A stretch of 64,000 nucleotides of DNA from Haloterrigena salifodinae. Lineage in GTDB: Archaea > Halobacteriota > Halobacteria > Halobacteriales > Natrialbaceae. Shown here in pieces: positions 22,557 to 63,525 of the stretch. The translations under genes and the position numbers were made by a program. Where the stretch lies: contig NZ_RQWN01000005.1 of assembly GCF_003977755.1 (NCBI RefSeq), forward strand, positions 1 through 64,000, written 5' to 3'. The notes under the pieces are model-generated. The model saw only the letters and a program-made list of their open reading frames with translations, was not told the origin of the DNA and did no database searches. Positions within the stretch are counted from its first letter, which is position 1. Each line of letters opens with the position of its first letter.

Positions 22557-23750
22557 TTACTCAAGCATTTGCGCGAGCGACTCCCCGACCGAAGAAAGAT
22601 CTCCGTCTTCGTCACGAAGACACGTTTTGACGGCGGAAATTCCAGTTACCGAGCCGACGATCAATACCTGGTTATTGGTACCGCGATACGCGGATGCGTC
22701 GGCATCGTCGACGATCGACCGAATGCGGTCTCGATCCTCGCTCTGGAGTCCGTCGACCTCGATCGCGAGCGCGTACCAGTCGTCGGCGACGGCGGGATCG
22801 ACACCGCGTTCGTCGAGATACGCGCGCAGTTCCCGACTCGAGTGCACGTCGAGTCGGGTCACCGAAAGGTCGTCGTCGACGCTCCGCGAGCGCTCGGTGA
22901 ACGCGTCGCCGATCAGGGCCGCGTCGCGCGTCTCGGCGACGTCGTGGGTCCGGATCACGTGCGCGCCGCGCTCGACGGCCATCGACGTGGCCGCGAGGCT
23001 GACCGGGAGTCGCTCGTCGGTCTCGCGGCCGGCGATCTCGCCGAGGAAGTTCTTCCGGTTGATCGAGACCAGCATCGGCCGGTCGAGCGCGCGGAACTCG
23101 CGCAGTCGGCGGAAGGTCTCGCGGTCGTCCTCGAGGGTCTGGGCCTCGCTCCAGCCGCCGAAGGCGGGGTCGACGATCGTCTTGTCGGTCAGGCCGTTCT
23201 GCTTGAGGGCCTCGTAGATCTGGTCGACGTAGTCGGCCCGCTCGGCCCAGTCCGCTGACTTGCGCGCAGCCCAGTCCGTTTCCTCTACGGCCCCCGGCCG
23301 TTCGAGGTTCGGCGGACTCGCCATCTTCGCGACGGCGACGTCGTACTCCTCGCAGACGGTCGGCATCTCCGGATCCGCGAAGCCGGCGATGTCGTTGACC
23401 ATGTCGAACCCCTTCGAGAGGGCTGTGTCGGCCACCTCGGCGTAGCGGGTCTCGATGGAGAAGACGGCGTCTCCGGAGACGCTCTCGATCGTCTCGAGGG
23501 CGACGTGGAGACGCTCGAGTTCCTCGTCGGCGGAGAGCACGTCGAACCGTTTGTTCGCCGACTCGAGGCCGATGTCGACGATATCGGCGCCGTCGCCGAT
23601 GAGTTCCTCGTCGACGTACTGGGCTGCCTCGCCGGGGTCGTCGTAGACGCTGGGATCGTAGGGAGACTCCTCGCTGACGTTCAACACGCCCATAATGCGG
23701 GGCGGATGGTCGTCACCGATCCCCAGCCCCGCAGCGTCGACGTTGTGCAT
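22557..23750 (-). CDS. folP: Divergent dihydropteroate synthase-like protein with C-terminal extension
   Basis: A 397-residue protein. The first 270 or so residues follow the dihydropteroate synthase TIM barrel: IMGVLNVSEESPYDP, DIVDIGLESANK, VFSIETRYAEVA, MVNDIAGFADPE, PMLVSINRKNFLGEI and GAHVIRTHDVAET. Compared with bacterial FolP, the STRPG substrate loop and the NVTPDSF motif are altered, so the aryl-amine partner may differ from simple pABA. The last 125 residues (from HSSRELRAYLDERGVD) are an extra domain not found in bacterial FolP. Neighbour mptE supports pterin synthesis. Confidence 0.85.
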   Translation of the reverse strand: MHNVDAAGLGIGDDHPPRIMGVLNVSEESPYDPSVYDDPGEAAQYVDEELIGDGADIVDIGLESANKRFDVLSADEELERLHVALETIESVSGDAVFSIETRYAEVADTALSKGFDMVNDIAGFADPEMPTVCEEYDVAVAKMASPPNLERPGAVEETDWAARKSADWAERADYVDQIYEALKQNGLTDKTIVDPAFGGWSEAQTLEDDRETFRRLREFRALDRPMLVSINRKNFLGEIAGRETDERLPVSLAATSMAVERGAHVIRTHDVAETRDAALIGDAFTERSRSVDDDLSVTRLDVHSSRELRAYLDERGVDPAVADDWYALAIEVDGLQSEDRDRIRSIVDDADASAYRGTNNQVLIVGSVTGISAVKTCLRDEDGDLSSVGESLAQMLE

Positions 23751-23838: not shown

Positions 23839-25080
23839 CTACGCAGCGTCGTCGCCGTCGTCCTCGAGGACGGCAAGCCGCGAGTCCCGCAAGAGCACCT
23901 TCTTGACGATCGAGGGGTTCTCGAGCAGTCGGTGTTTGGCGTGGGCGCCGCGGCCGCGCCCGCGACCCTCGCGTTCGGACTGGATCACGTTGAGGAAGTT
24001 CTGTTCCTGGAGGATCTCCTGGACGCGCCGTTCGGAGAGCACGTCGAAGTCGAGTTGTCGGGCGACCTCCTTGTACTGGTTGTAGATAATCTTCGTCGGA
24101 AACTCCTTCTCCGTGCTGTTCTCGGTCAGCAGCGTCAGCGAGTAGAGAATGGCCTTGGCCTGCTGGGGCGAGCCCTCGATGAGTTCGTTGAAGCGGTCGG
24201 CCTCGGTCTTCTCCTTGGCGTCGCGGACGTGATCGGCGGTTACCCGAGTCGCGTTCTGTTTCTTCGCGATGCGACCGGCGTTGCGGAGGATGTCAATCGC
24301 CTTGCGCGCGTCGCCGTGTTCCTGTGCCGCCAGCGCCGCCGTGAGGGGAATGACGTCGTCCGAGAGCACGCCGTCGTGGAAGGCGTCGCGCCGCTTCTCC
24401 AAGATTTCGACCAGCTGGTTGGCGTCATACGGCGAGAAGACGAGTTCGTCGCGAGAGAGACTGGATTTGACGCGTTCCGAGAGGTGATCGGGAAAGTCGA
24501 TCTTGTTAGAGATGCCGATGATGCCGATACTCGAGTCCGATATCCGCCGGTTTTCTCCCGCACGGGAGAGTTTCCGGAGGACTTCGTCGTCCTCGAGCAT
24601 ATCAATCTCGTCTAAGATGACGATGGTGACGTCGGTGCAGTGATCGATCGCCTGCCAGAGTCGCTTGTAGTAGTCGCCGGTGCCGAGGCCGCGATCGGGG
24701 ATGGAGACGCCGCTCCGATCGGGTTCGTTGACGATCTGGGCGATCGTCTTCACGATCGACGCCTCAGTGTTTTGCTCGCCGCAGTCGATGAAGGCGTACT
24801 TGACGGTGATGTCGTCGCGCTGTGCTTCGGAAATTACCCGCTGGGTGATCGAACGGGAGATGAGTGACTTGCCGGTTCCGGTCTTGCCGAAGATGAACAG
24901 GTGGTTGGGTTCGCTCCCGAAAATAGCCGGGTTCAGGGCGTCCGCAACCCGTTGCATCTGCTCGTCGCGCCCGACGATCCGATCCGGACCGGGCAGGTGC
25001 GTAATCTCGAGCAGGCGCTCGTCGGCGAAGACCGGATCGTCGTACCGAAAGAGCGGGTCTCGATCGTCGTTTGCGGACAT
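23839..25080 (-). CDS. orc1: Orc1/Cdc6 replication initiator
   Basis: A 413-residue AAA+ initiator that binds origin boxes and loads replicative helicase. Walker A GKTGTGKS is at 65-72, Walker B VIVILDEIDML near 152, sensor 1 IIGISNK near 190, and the sensor 2 Arg is in HGDARKAIDIL near 265. The C-terminal winged helix (about 320-400) includes ALRRVQEIL-like helix SERRVQEILQEQNFLNVIQS. Haloarchaea have many Orc paralogues; the adjacent repeat-filled region implies this one serves a real origin. Transcription runs away from the origin. Confidence 0.96.
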   Translation of the reverse strand: MSANDDRDPLFRYDDPVFADERLLEITHLPGPDRIVGRDEQMQRVADALNPAIFGSEPNHLFIFGKTGTGKSLISRSITQRVISEAQRDDITVKYAFIDCGEQNTEASIVKTIAQIVNEPDRSGVSIPDRGLGTGDYYKRLWQAIDHCTDVTIVILDEIDMLEDDEVLRKLSRAGENRRISDSSIGIIGISNKIDFPDHLSERVKSSLSRDELVFSPYDANQLVEILEKRRDAFHDGVLSDDVIPLTAALAAQEHGDARKAIDILRNAGRIAKKQNATRVTADHVRDAKEKTEADRFNELIEGSPQQAKAILYSLTLLTENSTEKEFPTKIIYNQYKEVARQLDFDVLSERRVQEILQEQNFLNVIQSEREGRGRGRGAHAKHRLLENPSIVKKVLLRDSRLAVLEDDGDDAA

Positions 25081-25248
25081 TGCGGTACCCCGTGGCTTCC
25101 CGCTGGATTGAAATAAAGGTATGGAGATCGCTCGCGGATGTAAATGTCGACTGTAAGGCCGTAAGACGGTCGCAACTGTCCGCGTCAGTTATTCTGATAG
25201 GAGACGGCGGCCTCGCGCTTCTAACCGCGGCGGCGACTCAGGCGTGTC

Positions 25249-25278
25249 AAACACAGACACCCCCGTCGCGGATGTAAC
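25249..25278 (-). repeat. Origin recognition box-like repeat 1
   Basis: Read on the minus strand it starts GTTACATCCGCGACGGGGGT and continues into GTCTGTGTTT. It shares the GTTACA, CGCGA and GGGGGTGT parts with the two best boxes but differs at the AAA/TCC step and lacks the final CCCC. It lies 169 bp from the orc1 start codon. Confidence 0.7.
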
Positions 25279-25421
25279 GCTGACATCGGTCAACCGCCGA
25301 ACTTCGATTCGCCGTCGAAGCCGGGAGAATCGAGCGGAGACATCACGGAAGTGAGAAGAACCCGTTCGAGAGCCGGGATAGCGGGTGATTTTGCCCCCTG
25401 TGCGACGCGCGTCTGACACGG

Positions 25422-25452
25422 AGGGGACACACACCCCCGTCGCGTTTGTAAC
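25422..25452 (-). repeat. Origin recognition box, inverted copy
   Basis: Minus-strand sequence begins GTTACAAACGCGAC and ends GGGGGTGTGTGTCCCCT, differing from the copy at 25577 by one base over 31. The G-string and flanking core match the design of archaeal ORBs bound by Orc1/Cdc6. The G-rich end points toward orc1. Confidence 0.8.
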
Positions 25453-25522
25453 GGGAACAGTGGGGAGGGGGTTGCAGAATTATCCCGGATTTCGACGAGA
25501 TTCGGGGCATCGACCCGCCGAA

Positions 25523-25550
25523 TTTACATCCGCGACACTGGTGTGTTCCA
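25523..25550 (+). repeat. Diverged origin box-like repeat
   Basis: TTTACATCCGCGACACTGGT followed by GTGTTCCA keeps the TTACATCCGCGAC core of box 1 but has a broken G-string. It lies between the two best boxes. It could be a weaker Orc site. Confidence 0.5.
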
Positions 25551-25576
25551 CGAAGAGACCCCCACACCTAGATGGC

Positions 25577-25607
25577 GTTACAAACGCGATGGGGGTGTGT
25601 GTCCCCT
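25577..25607 (+). repeat. Origin recognition box, direct copy
   Basis: Begins GTTACAAACGCGAT and ends GGGGGTGTGTGTCCCCT. It is the inverted partner of 25422-25452, 124 bp apart, with the G-rich ends facing outward. Near identity over 31 bp in non-coding DNA argues for strong selection. Confidence 0.8.
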
Positions 25608-25764
25608 CAACAACTCCGACGGACACCATCGTTCGAGGACGGATCAGCCCAAAACTGCTCAGATAGTCCACAGCGTCGGGAAACACGAATCCAGGAACGC
25701 CAGTGAGCCAACTCATTCCAGAAAACGTGGATCCGACGACTCCACCGATCGTCTTCGAACCCGC

Positions 25765-25800
25765 CTAGACTAGTTCTAGATCTAGTTCTAGCTAGTCTAG
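25765..25800. other. CTAG cluster next to the origin boxes
   Basis: Seven CTAG tetranucleotides occur within 36 bp, at 25765, 25770, 25776, 25782, 25788, 25792 and 25797. CTAG is normally rare in haloarchaeal genomes. The centre holds the 10-bp palindrome CTAGATCTAG. The following 35 bp (to about 25835) are also AT-rich, so the whole may be an unwinding element or protein-binding site. Confidence 0.6.
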
Positions 25801-26070
25801 AACGAAGTTAGTTAGATAAAGTAGGTTAACAGTCGCTGCCAACGTGATCCTCCTAAGGGGGAGTAGACGCTGTTCAAACGAAACCATCTGACCTCCCGAA
25901 CGCGTCCCTTTTGCCACCGCAGCAGATAGTCGAGGTATGATCGACGCGTCTCTCGAGTCGCCGCCCTCTCAGTCCGTCGACTCGAGTTGTGGACTCCCGT
26001 GGCGACGTGTGCGGACGGACGGAACCGAAACGGATACACGGCTCCTCGAGCCGATATCCTCCATCGAACG

Positions 26071-26850
26071 ATGACTCCCGAGCCGTCCGCGACCGAGCCG
26101 CCGTCCGATCGGACCCCGCCAGCGGTCGCCGTCGTCGACGCCCAGTTCCCGGGAAACGTCGGCACCATCGCTCGAGCGATGAAGAACTTCGGATTCGAGG
26201 ACCTCCTGCTGGTCGATCCGCCGGAACTCGATCCCGACGGAGAGGCCTACGGATTCGCGGGCCACGCCCGCGAGGACGTGCTTCCGAACGCGACGGAGAT
26301 CTCGTTCGACCGGCTCGTCGCGGAGTATCACACGATCGGCTGTACGGCGGTCACCAACGAGGACGACCGGAGTCACGTCCGGTTCCCGTTTTCGACGCCC
26401 GCAGACCTCGCGGAGCGACTGCCGACCGTCGAGGCGCCGACGGCGCTGGTCTTCGGTCGCGAACGCGTCGGGCTGACGAACGAGGAACTCGCCCGCATCG
26501 ACGAGATCTGTTCGATCCCGGCCAGCGCCGAGTACCCCGTCCTCAACCTCGGCCAGGCCGCGACGATCACGCTGTACGAACTGCGCTCGCTGGCCCTCGA
26601 CGACGACGAGACCCAGCTGCCGGACGTCGAACGCGTCCGCGCCCCAGAACCGACGGTCGATCGTCTCTACGATCAGTGGGCAGACCTCCTCGGCGAGATT
26701 AACCATCCCGAAGAGAAACGCGACAAGACGATGCGGATGCTCCGGCGCGTGTTCGGCCGCGCGGATCTGACCGAACGCGAGGCGAACACGCTGCTCGGCA
26801 TCCTTCGGCGGGCGACCGAACGACCCGCCGAGAACCGAGGACGCGAGTAA
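26071..26850 (+). CDS. SPOUT-class RNA 2'-O-methyltransferase, TrmJ-like
   Basis: A 259-residue S-adenosylmethionine-dependent methyltransferase with the deep-knot SPOUT fold. The three motifs are NVGTIARAMKNFGFED near residue 30 (motif 1 Asn and Arg), LVFGRERVGLTNEEL near 130 (motif 2) and YPVLNLGQAATITLYEL near 157 (motif 3, AdoMet loop). The C-terminal 90 residues form a helical tail as in TrmJ, which methylates tRNA position 32. The target is inferred from that similarity. Start ATG 26071 begins with an MTPEPSATE acidic leader. Confidence 0.88.
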   Translation: MTPEPSATEPPSDRTPPAVAVVDAQFPGNVGTIARAMKNFGFEDLLLVDPPELDPDGEAYGFAGHAREDVLPNATEISFDRLVAEYHTIGCTAVTNEDDRSHVRFPFSTPADLAERLPTVEAPTALVFGRERVGLTNEELARIDEICSIPASAEYPVLNLGQAATITLYELRSLALDDDETQLPDVERVRAPEPTVDRLYDQWADLLGEINHPEEKRDKTMRMLRRVFGRADLTEREANTLLGILRRATERPAENRGRE

Positions 26851-57912: not shown

Positions 57913-58544
57913 TAGACAGTTTTGGTAGCGAAGTGGGTAACCAAACGGCTTTCTGCACGGTGTCGGAGTCTACTAGCAGCAGACTTGTGGATATCCAGAG
58001 CTTCTGCAAGTTCGGTGAGCGTACACGTTCTGGGATCGTTGTAAAATCCCCTCTCAATGCCAGTGTCGATGAATTGCTGCTGTCGGTTCGTTAGTACCGT
58101 ATCAGTTTCGTGGGAATGAGACAAAGAGATCACCTGATACGGAATCTCCGATGCCGCAAGTTCCTCTAAATAGTCCGACAGGCTGTCATGACCAGCGACG
58201 ACATGTACTGAGAACCGTCCGTTTTGGAGAATCGTTGGATATATCGAGATACAGCCGGACTCGTAGAGAGGATCGTATGCCTTTGAATCTCTGGTGAGAA
58301 ACTGGAGAAGTACTATCTTTGAGTCCGCGTGAAGGAGTTCAACATTTGCGGCATCAGGTGTAGTTTTGAACTCCCGAATAACGTCGGACCTATCGGTTGT
58401 CCTGACTTCGAGTGTGACGAGCGCACCTTCATCACGAAGTTGCGTCGCGAGAAGTCGGAATTCGGCGGTCGGAAACCCCGTTGAAAGTTCTGCGAGCCAT
58501 CCCCCGATCGCCGCCCCATTCAATTCGACTTTCAAGTGTGGCAT
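57912..58544 (-). CDS. HTH_10 (bacterio-opsin activator-like) regulator
   Basis: A 210-residue protein. The C-terminal 55 residues are an HTH_10 domain (LTNRQQQFIDTGIERGFYND, then LTELAEALDIHKSAASRLRH), and the first 140 form the mixed alpha/beta sensory domain common in Bat-like haloarchaeal regulators. Codons and GC content are lower than in neighbours, so it may have arrived by transfer. It is divergent from the SnoaL-like gene at 58685 over 140 bp, which it may control. Start at 58544 (MPHLKVELNG) is favoured over 58700. Confidence 0.85.
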   Translation of the reverse strand: MPHLKVELNGAAIGGWLAELSTGFPTAEFRLLATQLRDEGALVTLEVRTTDRSDVIREFKTTPDAANVELLHADSKIVLLQFLTRDSKAYDPLYESGCISIYPTILQNGRFSVHVVAGHDSLSDYLEELAASEIPYQVISLSHSHETDTVLTNRQQQFIDTGIERGFYNDPRTCTLTELAEALDIHKSAASRLRHRAESRLVTHFATKTV

Positions 58545-58684
58545 TGCTAGAATCGATTCCTGGGAAGTACTTAAAGACAGCAACCTGTTTCTACTAAAAC
58601 CTACGCTAGTCGAGGCCCTCTCTCCCCTGTGGTCGAAATGAAATACTCCACGACCTATCCAAGCACTCGCAGAGGGAAAGACCA

Positions 58685-59128
58685 ATGACAGCCGATTCAC
58701 TCACACCGCAGGAACGAGAGAACGAGCGTATTGCACGTCGTATTCCTGAAGATGTTTTCGGTAACAGTGATCTCGACTTGCTTGACGACCTGTACGCACC
58801 CAATGCCGTCGATTACAACCCATTCGGTGCCCAAGAGGGATTAGAGGCGATTCGAGAATCCTATGAATCGTTCCTTTCGGCATTCCCTGACATCAAGCAA
58901 ACAGTCGAGCACAGCGTTACTAGTGGTGATACGGTCGCACTCCATATCACGAGTCGCGGAACGCACAGGGGAGTCTTCTGGGGGATTGAGCCAACTGGGA
59001 AGGAGATTGAGGTACAACAGATGGCGTTCTTCCGCATCGAGGATGGGTTAATCGCTGAGCGATGGTTCCTCTCAGATAACCTGACGCTACTCCGACAACT
59101 CGGCGTTATCGATTTCCCACCAGAGTGA
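58685..59128 (+). CDS. SnoaL-like ester cyclase-family protein
   Basis: A 147-residue NTF2-fold polyketide-cyclase-like protein. Visible features are LDLLDDLYAPNAVDYNPFGA (helix and substrate Asp), IRESYESFLSAFPDIKQTVE, then VALHITSRGTHRGVFWGIEP and MAFFRIEDGLIAERWFLSDN, the sequence usual for SnoaL/ester cyclase domains. The reaction is unknown; many are small-molecule isomerases or just ligand binders. Its GC is low for this genome. The pair with the divergent HTH_10 gene looks like a transferred unit. Confidence 0.85.
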   Translation: MTADSLTPQERENERIARRIPEDVFGNSDLDLLDDLYAPNAVDYNPFGAQEGLEAIRESYESFLSAFPDIKQTVEHSVTSGDTVALHITSRGTHRGVFWGIEPTGKEIEVQQMAFFRIEDGLIAERWFLSDNLTLLRQLGVIDFPPE

Positions 59129-59199
59129 GGAAGAGCCCGTCCAAACACCCTCATACATAGGCCTTAGCCGGATGGCTATTTGAGCAGGCCGCCTGACTG

Positions 59200-59890
59200 A
59201 TGAATACTTTGACGGACGCGTTCACGGACACCGAGATCTATCGGACGACGAGACTCGCCAGAGAATACGGCTTCGAATCCTTCGACTCTGGACGCGCAGA
59301 CAACGTGACGTACGAAGATACATGCTTTTTTGAGTTACAGACGTTCATGGGAATGGTTGATTGTGGGACCGCCCAAGGCGCGGCTCGCTTCAAGTATCGA
59401 AGAGGCAAAAACTACGGGCCACACAGTGATACCCACCTTCGCACCGCCAAACAATTCTCTCGGGATACGCTTGTCGACGGCTTTGACGACGCCAACAAGT
59501 GCATCCTCTCTGTAATCGCATCCCAAACCTCGTTTCCGCGGCCGGTGACCGTCGCTATCGATATAACTACGTTCCATACTACGGTGAAGTGGAGGCCATG
59601 CCGATGGTCAGCGGCACAAAAACCCTGATCAGTACGCATACAAATACGCCACCATATCGCTAGTCGTCCGGAACATCCCGTTGGTCCTCGGCGTCGAGCC
59701 CGTCCAGCAGAACTCGAAGTGGGACGAGAATCCGCTGATCGGATGCATCGCGTCGTCCGCACCCTGGTTCGACGAGCTCAACGCCACGTCCAGATCGACA
59801 CCGTGCTCTGTGACCGCGAATTCGACTGAGTAGAGAAAACCTTTCTCTCCAAGACTCATCGAGCCGATCGAGCCTAACGAGAACCAATCC
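59200..59890 (+). pseudogene. Frameshifted transposase relic
   Basis: From ATG 59200 the frame reads about 125 residues up to FPRPVTVAIDITTFH, then a frameshift near 59575; the continuation YYGEVEAMPMVSGTK is in another frame, then YAYKYATISLVVRNIPLVLG and EPVQQNSKWDENPLIG in a third, then L-C-D-R-E-F-D just before 59830. These are conserved parts of a haloarchaeal transposase: the AIDIT and CDREFD aspartates belong to a DDE-type catalytic core. At least three frame changes and missing C-terminal part make it inactive. I could not find clean terminal inverted repeats. Confidence 0.75.
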
Positions 59891-61716
59891 TCCGAACTAC
59901 TGTATTGGACGCCACTCGGATATTCGGTATAGCGCTATGGTATTTATCTGTCCGTCTTCGACCGTGCTCGTAGCTAGATAACATACAACATTATTGTCGG
60001 TCGCTGAATCGAACAGCTGCTTCAGCGACACCAATCCGACTGTGATTGCTCGACCGACTCGAGACTGACTGCGAACTGTCGCCCGTGCATTCGTTACGGG
60101 TTCGGAGTCTGTGACTGACCGCCGGAGCGATTTAGCCCGGCAAGTGCAGTTGTTCCTCGGTTTTCCCGAGCACGGTTCCCCGCTCGAGGGGCCAGCTGAT
60201 ATTCACGAACGCAATGGTACGTCACAGGGTACAAGCGGGTCTCGACTACCGTTATCGAGGCCTCGAGTACAGAGACGACGCGGTATCGCAGTCGAGCAGA
60301 TTCCTCTCGAGAACGCATTACATCGGTTCGTACGGGGGATTACGCCGTGCGATAGCCGCGATAGTGCGGGATTCGAGTGCGTAAACCGGGCCACGAAAAT
60401 CAGGCTGGCTAGGACGCTAGGAGCAAAGGTCTCTGGCTCCCCGCCGGACGTCCTGGCAGCCGTGAAGAACACGGTTTGCAGATGCGTCTCGTCAGCAGCG
60501 TTCTTCGAGTTCCGTTTCGCTCGAAAGCCGCGCCACGATTTTCCGACGCAACCGGCACCGAGGTGACGGTCGCGTACTCCCGGGGTGTTCGAATAGCCTA
60601 GCAACGCCGACCTCGAGGCCCACAGGGACGAATACTGTGTCAATAAGCGGACAGCGGGATAGTAGCGTGAACGAAGGACTATTCTCCGGCCACGGGAGTC
60701 TCGAACGGAAACCCGCACTGAACCCTACTGAATTAGTCTGACCGGTCAGATCGGACAACCCGTTGGGGACGGGACTACCACCGAACCTCGTTCGTCGATC
60801 GACTAACCGAGTCGGCCCGTCCGTGAGCGGGCGAGGTTCGATCGGAGTACGAATGCGATACGAGAAGGCCCCGCTCCACCTCGCTCACTCCGTGACGGGT
60901 CACGGTTTCACCAAGCCTTGTATTCGCCCAGAGCTGCCGCTGAGGCCGTTTTCTCAACACACTAGCCAATCCCCAAATTCAATTATCGAGTCGAATGCGA
61001 CAGCGTCGACGACCGAATTTCGACTTCTGGGAGCCGACCAACGAGCTCGCATTCATCGGGAGACGAGGACGAGACTATCCGGTACTCGGACATCGCACAG
61101 TCGGAGAATCCACTAGCCGAACCGTTCGATGCGAGCCCCTCTCGAATCACGGGGACCGATCACGATCGAGAACGGCCCGCGACCATGCCCGACGGTTCCG
61201 GAACCGGTGGGCTCGAGTAGCCCTGCACCGCCACGAGTTTCTGTTCGTTTCCTCTCGGCCCTCGTTAACGGGGGCACGGAACGACGTGCCAATGCGAGCC
61301 GATCGAGTCGCCTTACTCGGTCCGACCGACACCTCGAGTCGAGACCGAGCAGACGCCGAAGGCGATTGCGTGATCATCACTGATTGGTGGCCGTCCGTCT
61401 GATGACGGCCCAACTGAGTCACTCGTTCACAACCCCTTCCAATTAAAAAACTGATGTATAGGGAAGGAAAACAATTTGTTCTGCAAGCCTGTTTTCGAGC
61501 CGTAACCCCAAGGGTCTGACCCGGGAAGATGCCGTTCAAATTTTGCCGATTCTAGTCCAGTTTCGGAATCGAACGAGGCTCGGTTTGGACTAGTTCGTCG
61601 ATCCTCCTCCACTAATCAAATAATTTATGTTATTGTCCTATCTTGTTTTTCTCTCTGACTCCTGGCTCCCATTCGTGGCTCTCCTTTATTCTCTGAGATG
61701 GTACTACAGTGGGCTA
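59891..61716. other. 1.8-kb region with no convincing gene
   Basis: Several open frames of 60-150 codons occur, but their composition (Arg, Ser, Thr, Pro rich) and lack of motifs argue against coding. GC is variable and lower near 61430-61700, where an 8-bp inverted repeat CTAGTCCA / TGGACTAG lies at 61552-61593. There is a stem-loop at 60000-60029. It may be debris from old insertions. Confidence 0.5.
60000..60029. other. Perfect 9-bp stem-loop
   Basis: GTCGCTGAA (60000-60008) and TTCAGCGAC (60021-60029) are exact inverted repeats with a 12-base loop. Outside it GTCGG and CCGAC can pair further with a bulge. It is in the gene-free stretch about 110 bp past the transposase relic and may be a former terminus or an RNA structure. 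Confidence 0.5.
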
Positions 61717-61740
61717 ATTTGTGGACTCATACTCACAAAT
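61717..61740. promoter_or_regulatory. Operator-like inverted repeat 1
   Basis: ATTTGTG and CACAAAT are perfect 7-bp inverted repeats with a 10-base spacer. The half-site CACAAATAA also occurs in the next repeat 50 bp downstream. It lies 104 bp before the DNA-binding-protein gene. Confidence 0.6.
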
Positions 61741-61777
61741 AAATCTGCTCCACGGCCGGTATCGGAGTCCCTCGAGT

Positions 61778-61799
61778 ACAAATAAATGCCCTTATTTGT
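61778..61799. promoter_or_regulatory. Operator-like inverted repeat 2
   Basis: ACAAATAA and TTATTTGT are perfect 8-bp inverted repeats with a six-base spacer. They share the ACAAAT half-site with repeat 1 and overlap the likely TATA position, 45 bases before ATG 61844. Repression by the downstream-encoded small DNA-binding protein is plausible. Confidence 0.6.
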
Positions 61800-61843
61800 G
61801 AATGTGGGATAGATTGATGTGGTTCCGCTGAGAGCCACCCCGT

Positions 61844-62230
61844 ATGGCCGACGACGAACGAGTCGCCGTCAAGACCTACGTGCCGCGGTACCAGAAAGAG
61901 CTCTGGGAAGCCCAGGCCGAGGAACTCGAGATGAGTCAAAGCGAGTTCGTCCGAACGATGGTACAGGCGGGGCGCACGTCTTACGAGATACCGACGGACG
62001 GGACGACCGAGCAGGGTGGCGACGACGGCGCCGCCGGTGGCGACGACTTCGCGGATCGAATTCTCGAGGTACTCCAGCGTCGCGGCGTCCTCGACTGGGA
62101 CGAACTCGTCGACGCCTTAGTCGACGACATCGAGGCCGACCTCGACGCAGAACTCCAGCGGTTGCAGGACGAAAACCAGATCCGCTACAGCGGCCGCGAC
62201 GGCGGCTACGTGGTGACCGACGATGAGTGA
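61844..62230 (+). CDS. DUF5805-like ribbon-helix-helix plus winged-helix protein
   Basis: A 128-residue protein. The first 45 residues (ERVAVKTYVPRYQKELWEAQ, EMSQSEFVRTMVQAG) look like a ribbon-helix-helix DNA-binding fold; a Gly/Asp linker follows, then a winged-helix-like part (FADRILEVLQRRGVLDWDEL, LQRLQDENQIRYSGRDGGYV). This arrangement is often next to a tyrosine recombinase in haloarchaea. Its stop overlaps the recombinase start by eight bases. It likely binds the recombination site or its own promoter, where inverted repeats lie. Confidence 0.8.
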   Translation: MADDERVAVKTYVPRYQKELWEAQAEELEMSQSEFVRTMVQAGRTSYEIPTDGTTEQGGDDGAAGGDDFADRILEVLQRRGVLDWDELVDALVDDIEADLDAELQRLQDENQIRYSGRDGGYVVTDDE

Positions 62231-63260
62231 GGGCCGTCAGGAACCGAACACGGTCGAATACTTCCTGCAGGACATCGAGCACCACGGTCGAAACGAACGG
62301 ACCGCAGCGGCCTACGAACGGGTCCTCTCGGACTACGAAGCGTTCCTTACCGAGCGGTTCGAGAAGACGCCGCCGGAGGCGAGCTACCGGGACTGCATGG
62401 CCTGGGTTCACGAACTCCGAGCCACGCACTCCGAAAGCACCGTCGCGACGTACGCTTCGTATCTCAACCGGTTCTACAGCTACCTCGAGCGGGTCGGACA
62501 CACCGACGAGAACCCGATGACGGTCGTCTTAGAGGAGATGAACGAGTCGATCGAGTCGAACCCGACCCGACGGGACGTAACGCTGCCCGAGATGCGATCG
62601 TTCGTCGGAGAGATTCGCCACCCGCTACATCGGGCTATCGTAACGACGCTGCTGAAGACCGGGATCAGGGCTGGAGAGCTCTGTAACCTGGACCTGATCG
62701 ACCTCCACCTTGACCACGAGGCCCAGACTTGGCAGCCGCGGGCCCACATCGCCGGCCGCCCGGATTCGCTGTTTATCGCGACCGAACACACCTACGGACG
62801 CGAATCCGGCGGCGAACGCCGGACGGCATCGAACAAACGGAAACGCGAGACCGTCGTCCCGATCGACGAAGAATTGAAGGAGGTGTTGATCCGGTGGCTC
62901 GCCGTGCGTCCGGATACGCCCTCGAGTGCACCGTCAGCCCCCGCTACGGGGCCGCTGTTCGTCGGCACCGCCGACAGCTGGGGCGAGCGACTCACGCCGG
63001 ATATCGTCCACCACGTGGTCGAAGGCTATGCGAGGGACCGCGGCTGGTACCGCACCGGCGGCGGCGCCGCGGAGAACGTGACGCCCCACTACTTCCGGCA
63101 CTTCTTCACGACCCACCTCCGTGATCGGACGGGCGACCGCGGGATCGTCCAGTACCTCCGGGGCGATGTCGCCAGCGACGTGATCGATACCTACACCCAT
63201 AACTGGGGCGACCGGGTCCGGGAAACCTACCTCGAGCATATCTACTCCGTGACGCCCTGA
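62223..63260 (+). CDS. Tyrosine recombinase (XerC/D-like)
   Basis: A 345-residue site-specific recombinase. The N-terminal core-binding (SAM-like) domain is about 5-100 (VEYFLQDIEHHGRNERTAAA). The catalytic residues are Arg in LLKTGIRAGELCNLDLI, the HxxR box in HYFRHFFTTHLRD, and the nucleophile Tyr in VIDTYTHNWGDRV. All catalytic parts are intact. Such enzymes may resolve chromosome dimers or other DNA circles; pairing with the DUF5805-like protein rather than viral genes argues for a housekeeping role. Confidence 0.92.
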   Translation: MSEGRQEPNTVEYFLQDIEHHGRNERTAAAYERVLSDYEAFLTERFEKTPPEASYRDCMAWVHELRATHSESTVATYASYLNRFYSYLERVGHTDENPMTVVLEEMNESIESNPTRRDVTLPEMRSFVGEIRHPLHRAIVTTLLKTGIRAGELCNLDLIDLHLDHEAQTWQPRAHIAGRPDSLFIATEHTYGRESGGERRTASNKRKRETVVPIDEELKEVLIRWLAVRPDTPSSAPSAPATGPLFVGTADSWGERLTPDIVHHVVEGYARDRGWYRTGGGAAENVTPHYFRHFFTTHLRDRTGDRGIVQYLRGDVASDVIDTYTHNWGDRVRETYLEHIYSVTP

Positions 63261-63362
63261 AATCGCTCGTCTCGCAGCGGTGACTAGTTATCGTGCCGAT
63301 GACCCGCTGACGGTTGCTACCGGCGAATCTCGTCATACTGCTCGAGATATTGATTGAGATTT

Positions 63363-63376
63363 ACTACTATAGTAGT
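63363..63376. promoter_or_regulatory. 14-bp perfect palindrome
   Basis: ACTACTATAGTAGT is fully self-complementary and lies in an AT-rich stretch (63340-63450) between the recombinase stop and the convergent gene ending at 63526. It could be a transcription end signal or a recombination or protein-binding site. Confidence 0.4.
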
Positions 63377-63525
63377 TGTCTATACTGTCTGGAATCGGTC
63401 TGATGAACTGTATGTAGCTATATCTAATCAGAGCTAATCGAAACCGAACCTTCGACCCCAATATTCGGAAAATCGGACGCTAGAGAGCAATACGCGGCCG
63501 TCCGTCTCGAGAAGCAGCCGTCGAG

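Follow-up and report, generated by a model that had tools for sequence, protein, structure and literature searches.

Does the stretch of non-coding DNA that lies upstream of an orc1/cdc6 gene in Haloterrigena salifodinae act as a replication origin and, if so, to which kind of haloarchaeal origin does it belong? The window in which it was found (64,000 nucleotides) covers the first 64 kb of contig C5 (250,993 bp), within a genome of 4.96 Mb distributed over 11 contigs. As judged from its sequence, the region 25081-25830 together with the orc gene is very probably a self-contained, Orc1/Cdc6-dependent secondary chromosomal origin of this member of the Natrialbaceae, which stands near Haloterrigena salina. 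Secondary origins of this kind are known (the ortholog of Natrinema sp. J7 has already been predicted and cloned), and what the present analysis adds is the complete site map, the perfect pairing of Orc and box, the history of a moving module and the CTAG patch.

Architecture of the initiator gene and its boxes

The initial annotation had placed an orc1/cdc6 gene pointing away from about 1 kb of non-coding DNA with four related boxes, and the gene, the intergenic region and the boxes were all recovered in our analysis (Table 1). The 413 aa product scored 412.6 bits against TIGR02928 (cut-off 181.3), passed the cut-offs of PF22703 and PF09079, and found its closest solved structure in the archaeal ORC1-type protein 2v1u (PDB match 9e-65); a 100% identical protein is held by Haloterrigena salina, and the Orc1/Cdc6 protein is intact. 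The sequence from 25081 to 26070 is non-coding as far as the start of trmJ, directly adjoins the orc1/cdc6 gene and carries two or more inverted ORBs with a terminal G-string, both of which are features by which such origins are recognized.

Table 1. Features of the orc1/cdc6 locus and its flanks, in window coordinates
Feature	Position	Strand	Basis
folP, dihydropteroate synthase-type; opposite flank, context only	22557..23744	-	TIGR01496 above cut-off
orc1/cdc6 initiator gene (AAA+ ATPase, Cdc6 lid, C-terminal winged helix)	23839..25080	-	TIGR02928, PF22703, PF09079, PDB 2v1u
TATA-like CTTTATTT, putative orc promoter element	25111..25118	-	conserved in footprint
Half-box TTTACATCCGCGA, directly upstream of orc promoter; putatively autoregulatory	25132..25144	-	footprint
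Conserved half-box GTTAGAAGCGCGAGG, without G-string, ~145 bp before orc start codon	25211..25225	-	footprint, 49 sequences
Box B4, full ORB, orc-proximal, spacing variable	25257..25278	-	pattern and ortholog comparison
Box B3, full ORB, inverted relative to B1	25422..25452	-	repeat/pattern analysis
G-rich arm of inverted repeat, just inside B3	25460..25473	+	footprint
Box B2, ORB with degenerate G-string, 54 bp from B1	25523..25546	+	ortholog comparison
G-rich arm of inverted repeat, just inside B1	25558..25568	-	footprint
Box B1, full ORB with G-string	25577..25607	+	repeat/pattern analysis; kept in orthologs
Seven CTAG sites in 36 bp, inside AT-rich stretch; candidate methylation-sensitive unwinding or regulatory element	25765..25800	.	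CTAG counts
trmJ-type RNA methyltransferase; flanking gene, context only	26071..26850	+	TIGR00050 above cut-off

The two inverted 31-bp boxes (B1 and B3), previously described as one base apart, do differ at exactly one position, and their inverted repeat extends to 33 nt. The pattern GTTACANNCGCGAYGGGGGTGT has 3 exact sites in the window (as compared to 0 in 100 dinucleotide shuffles), and within the whole 4.96-Mb genome fewer than three mismatches to it were encountered at these 3 sites alone, while five three-mismatch matches are scattered. Boxes recurring elsewhere without an orc gene, which had been named beforehand as an argument against an origin, were thus not seen in the whole-genome scan, in which the boxes are unique to this locus.

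In a footprint built by aligning the upstream regions of 48 orthologs with the window (49 sequences), strong conservation is concentrated on B1-B4, both half-boxes, the TATA-like element and the orc promoter, and conservation is moderate in the G-rich inverted repeat inside B1 and B3. The promoter-adjoining half-box, the element at ~145 bp from the start codon, the G-rich inverted repeat and the CTAG cluster were all absent from the initial annotation. Neither of the half-boxes includes a G-string. In all 48 orthologs the distances B1-B2 (52-56 bp) and B2-B3 (83-93 bp) are nearly fixed, whereas B3-B4 varies from 77 to 602 bp, and we therefore regard B1-B2-B3 as a rigid core. AT content between the inverted boxes is 41-42% (35.5% in the window), with no strongly AT-rich tract there; an AT-rich stretch (25761-25830, 61% AT) sits outside B1.

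Orc-box pairing, mobility and genomic setting

Within a class-wide sample of 143 haloarchaeal genomes, Orc orthologs, called at 60% identity or more, and boxes, with one mismatch allowed at most, occurred together in the same 42 genomes and were both missing from the remaining 101, which ties this Orc type to an ORB of its own. Outside Natrialbaceae the best matches in this sample reach 64-73% identity and the next ones ~52% or less, and owing to this jump (from 64% to ~52%) the orthologs stand cleanly apart from the paralogs. The genome encodes about 17 Orc1/Cdc6 paralogs. Nine of its paralogs (this Orc included) have their own G-string repeats beside the gene, different in sequence and similar in frame, which bears out the earlier suggestion that each paralogue has its own version of the box. 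As five sampled genomes of its own family are devoid of it, the module is dispensable.

The order trmJ, origin, orc, folP is shared by most Natrialbaceae, and the locus defines a secondary origin common to most species of the family. The orc gene and its boxes also occur among other genes (loci L071-L074, Halorussus, Halomarina and Halogranum) with the box arrangement unchanged, and in several lineages trmJ and folP are divergent neighbours that lack the module between them; in genomes of other families such module-free neighbours are separated by gaps of 620-770 bp. Initiator and boxes move through genomes together, and this supports capture as a way in which archaeal chromosomes acquire origins. 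Seven module-free junctions of Natrialbaceae were read, none of which disclosed a clean insertion scar at folP/trmJ, and five of them contain a small conserved gene between the two neighbours. In module-free lineages this gene (e.g. L272 1493-2086) encodes about 190-197 aa. It was not found in the present genome (by a genome search that had no positive control of its own), and given its presence in the module-free junctions, the module seems to have replaced it. Furthermore, in three genomes of one genus (g26), in which the most distant relatives occur, contigs of 48-49 kb carry a 64-65%-identical relative of the Orc and no other orc (this refers to orc genes, as other Rep types on those replicons are possible); one of these contigs is probably circular, as indicated by a 78-bp terminal overlap.

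In the complete chromosome of Natrinema gelatinilyticum an rRNA operon that begins 30.5 kb downstream of the orc gene is transcribed away from it. An outward rRNA operon lies 23-35 kb off in eight further genomes (nine syntenic relatives in all) and at larger distances (53 and 106 kb) in two more, a shared synteny that counts as one inherited arrangement and not as many independent observations. No rRNA operon was found near the module in the relatives that carry it elsewhere (G003, G004 and G142). Window base 1 corresponds to a point 155 bp ahead of the 16S gene in Natrinema gelatinilyticum, so the contig very probably ends at an rRNA operon; the assembly yielded no 16S gene, and the break is probably an unassembled rRNA operon. 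According to published work, rRNA operons lie close to conserved active haloarchaeal origins and are directed away from them. On secondary replicons of three relatives (G001:C5:18528-29224, G003:C2:731201-747384 and G004:C4:291101-307426) an orc gene is situated about 8-14 kb from an rRNA operon.

The CTAG patch and the proposed mode of action

The CTAG cluster is the densest patch of this tetranucleotide on the contig (mean 0.50 per kb). Upstream regions of the orthologs carry 5.31 sites per kb as compared to 0.31 per kb in their flanks, so that a CTAG cluster upstream of orc, as in CTAG-clustered (m4CTAG) origins, is present at orthologous positions, in most cases 100-300 bp beyond B1. L071, L073 and L074 share it in spite of their different gene neighbourhoods; it is missing from a few orthologs (e.g. 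L051, L070 and L072), and outside Natrialbaceae it is sparse. The Natrinema sample has its densest patch at oriC1; at the ortholog of the present locus, five sites fall within 55 bp. An interpretation of the patch as mere AT-rich DNA was rejected (at most 3 CTAG in AT-rich 70-mers elsewhere vs 7 here). A second CTAG-rich stretch of lower GC (58-61% around 55-65 kb), possibly acquired DNA, was observed at window positions 58000-63500.

The occurrence of CTAG at origins is already known, and this locus is a strong instance of it: Blow et al. 2016 (PMC4752239) reported that CTAG sites cluster ahead of orc1/cdc6 genes, described an orphan m4CTAG methylase alongside and proposed a function in replication. 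The present patch, made up of probable methylation sites, resembles theirs in being dense, upstream of orc and in a CTAG-poor genome. According to a published survey, a cognate orphan CTAG methylase is present in 163 of 181 Halobacteria genomes; in Haloferax volcanii the cluster occurs at one origin only, and its role there has been doubted in print. The patch agrees with the published proposal that haloarchaeal origins are marked by methylation, and its conservation and density make the role of CTAG methylation at such origins testable at one short site.

The sequences themselves show the anatomy, the conservation, the Orc-box pairing and the mobility of the module as a unit; for Orc binding, unwinding, firing and CTAG methylation at this locus we infer the following course. 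The Orc from the adjacent gene would bind the four boxes, with its winged helix on the TTACA..CGCGA core and its AAA+ domain contacting the G-string; the initiator complex would be assembled by the rigid B1-B2-B3 unit; nearby AT-rich DNA would open, MCM would be loaded and two forks would leave. Through the half-boxes at the orc promoter the Orc probably limits its own synthesis, and at the CTAG patch a methylase probably marks newly fired origins or sets their timing. A further-reaching scenario, which we offer as a speculation and consider rather unlikely in its entirety, is that orc, the rigid three-box core, the half-boxes at the promoter and the CTAG patch make up a portable origin cassette that was inserted between trmJ and folP in the core Natrialbaceae ancestor, replaced the small gene, left no transposase behind and came under CTAG methylation control similar to that of GATC/Dam/SeqA, its firing state being read from the methylation of the patch.

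Activity, alternatives and relation to known origins

The PARS-5 primers of Natrinema J7 match Natrinema gari (L035) with zero mismatches at both ends and delimit a product of 2323 bp (reported: 2.3 kb), which spans all four boxes and the complete orc gene. By primer matches and product size, Natrinema sp. J7 oriC9/ARS-5 (pFJ5, PMC5350488) is the orthologous locus. The pFJ5 clone yielded <10 transformants (cfu) per ug, a near failure that nonetheless included a few intact plasmids (PMC5350488), in a host that keeps its own resident copy, and this low yield may reflect weakness or dormancy of the J7 ortholog, or else its incompatibility with the copy already there. GC skew was followed along the whole own contig and in 80 samples of 20 kb from a complete Natrinema chromosome; it did not switch at the ortholog in the latter, had no clear switch on the former, and was not accounted for by gene strand. 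In a multi-origin archaeon a missing switch is weak evidence either way. Of the earlier prediction of a probable Orc-associated chromosomal origin, the origin itself is upheld by anatomy, Orc-box pairing, geometry, sole-orc replicons and the J7 clone, and the predicted skew switch did not appear.

That the origin is dormant or degenerate (bound by Orc and able to replicate a plasmid, silent in wild-type cells and kept as a reserve) is a substantial possibility, if somewhat less likely than not; as to the identity of the locus it is a sub-case of our preferred explanation, and a rival to it as to the role in the cell. The very low ARS efficiency of the J7 ortholog, the lack of a GC-skew signature and the dormant Orc-ORB origins established in Haloferax mediterranei (published) all speak for silence. 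Yet low ARS efficiency can also stem from incompatibility with a resident copy, as has been shown for Haloarcula oriC2, and dormancy sits uneasily with strong purifying conservation over tens of species (in published work the dormant oriC4 shows little conservation, and it is the active origins that are conserved) and with the nearby outward rRNA operon. We consider it very unlikely that the boxes are mere operators for Orc autoregulation, or an Orc titration site, with no origin function. The half-boxes do abut the orc promoter, and a Haloarcula ORB-rich region restrains its origin, probably by titrating Cdc6E; however, four full boxes lying 180-520 bp upstream in a fixed inverted geometry exceed the needs of autoregulation, relatives of this Orc are the only orc on small replicons, and the ortholog clone gave those few intact plasmids in J7.

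To the remaining alternative, that the locus is oriC1 (the ancestral haloarchaeal origin), we attach next to no credence, in spite of its chromosomal location and of a CTAG cluster like that of oriC1. A separate oriC1 resides on C3 (C3:522479-522813; L258 7480-7814), with inverted canonical ORBs CCACTCGAAACGAAGGGG at 522479 and 522796, CTAG sites between and around them, and an adjacent Orc with a long acidic insert of roughly 170 aa; little was recovered from its neighbour genes with NCBIfam. Moreover, oriC1 is defined by an Orc found in all haloarchaea and by the canonical ORB core, while the present Orc is not universal (it is absent from most genomes searched outside Natrialbaceae), and the identity was rejected by sequence.

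The preferred reading, a secondary origin, is best placed by comparison with three known systems. With haloarchaeal oriC1 (H. hispanica cdc6A and the C3 locus) it shares inverted G-string ORBs, a G-rich inverted repeat inside them, which acts as an enhancer in Haloarcula oriC1, and a CTAG cluster. It differs from oriC1 in its Orc and box core, in the position of the CTAG patch (outside the boxes here, mostly between the inverted boxes in oriC1) and, as regards Haloarcula oriC1, in having no strongly AT-rich tract between the inverted boxes. For J7 oriC9 one ORB was counted and no boxes or family were given (PMC5350488), whereas four boxes and half-boxes are defined here. Haloarcula hispanica oriC2-cdc6E (PMC3936714, PMC4441112) has a downstream ORB array, which was not found here, and no match of this Orc exceeds 73% outside Natrialbaceae in the class-wide sample (origin families being defined at 80%); its rRNA operon lies about 20 kb off and is transcribed away, and, like the present locus, it is a secondary chromosomal origin with an Orc of its own.
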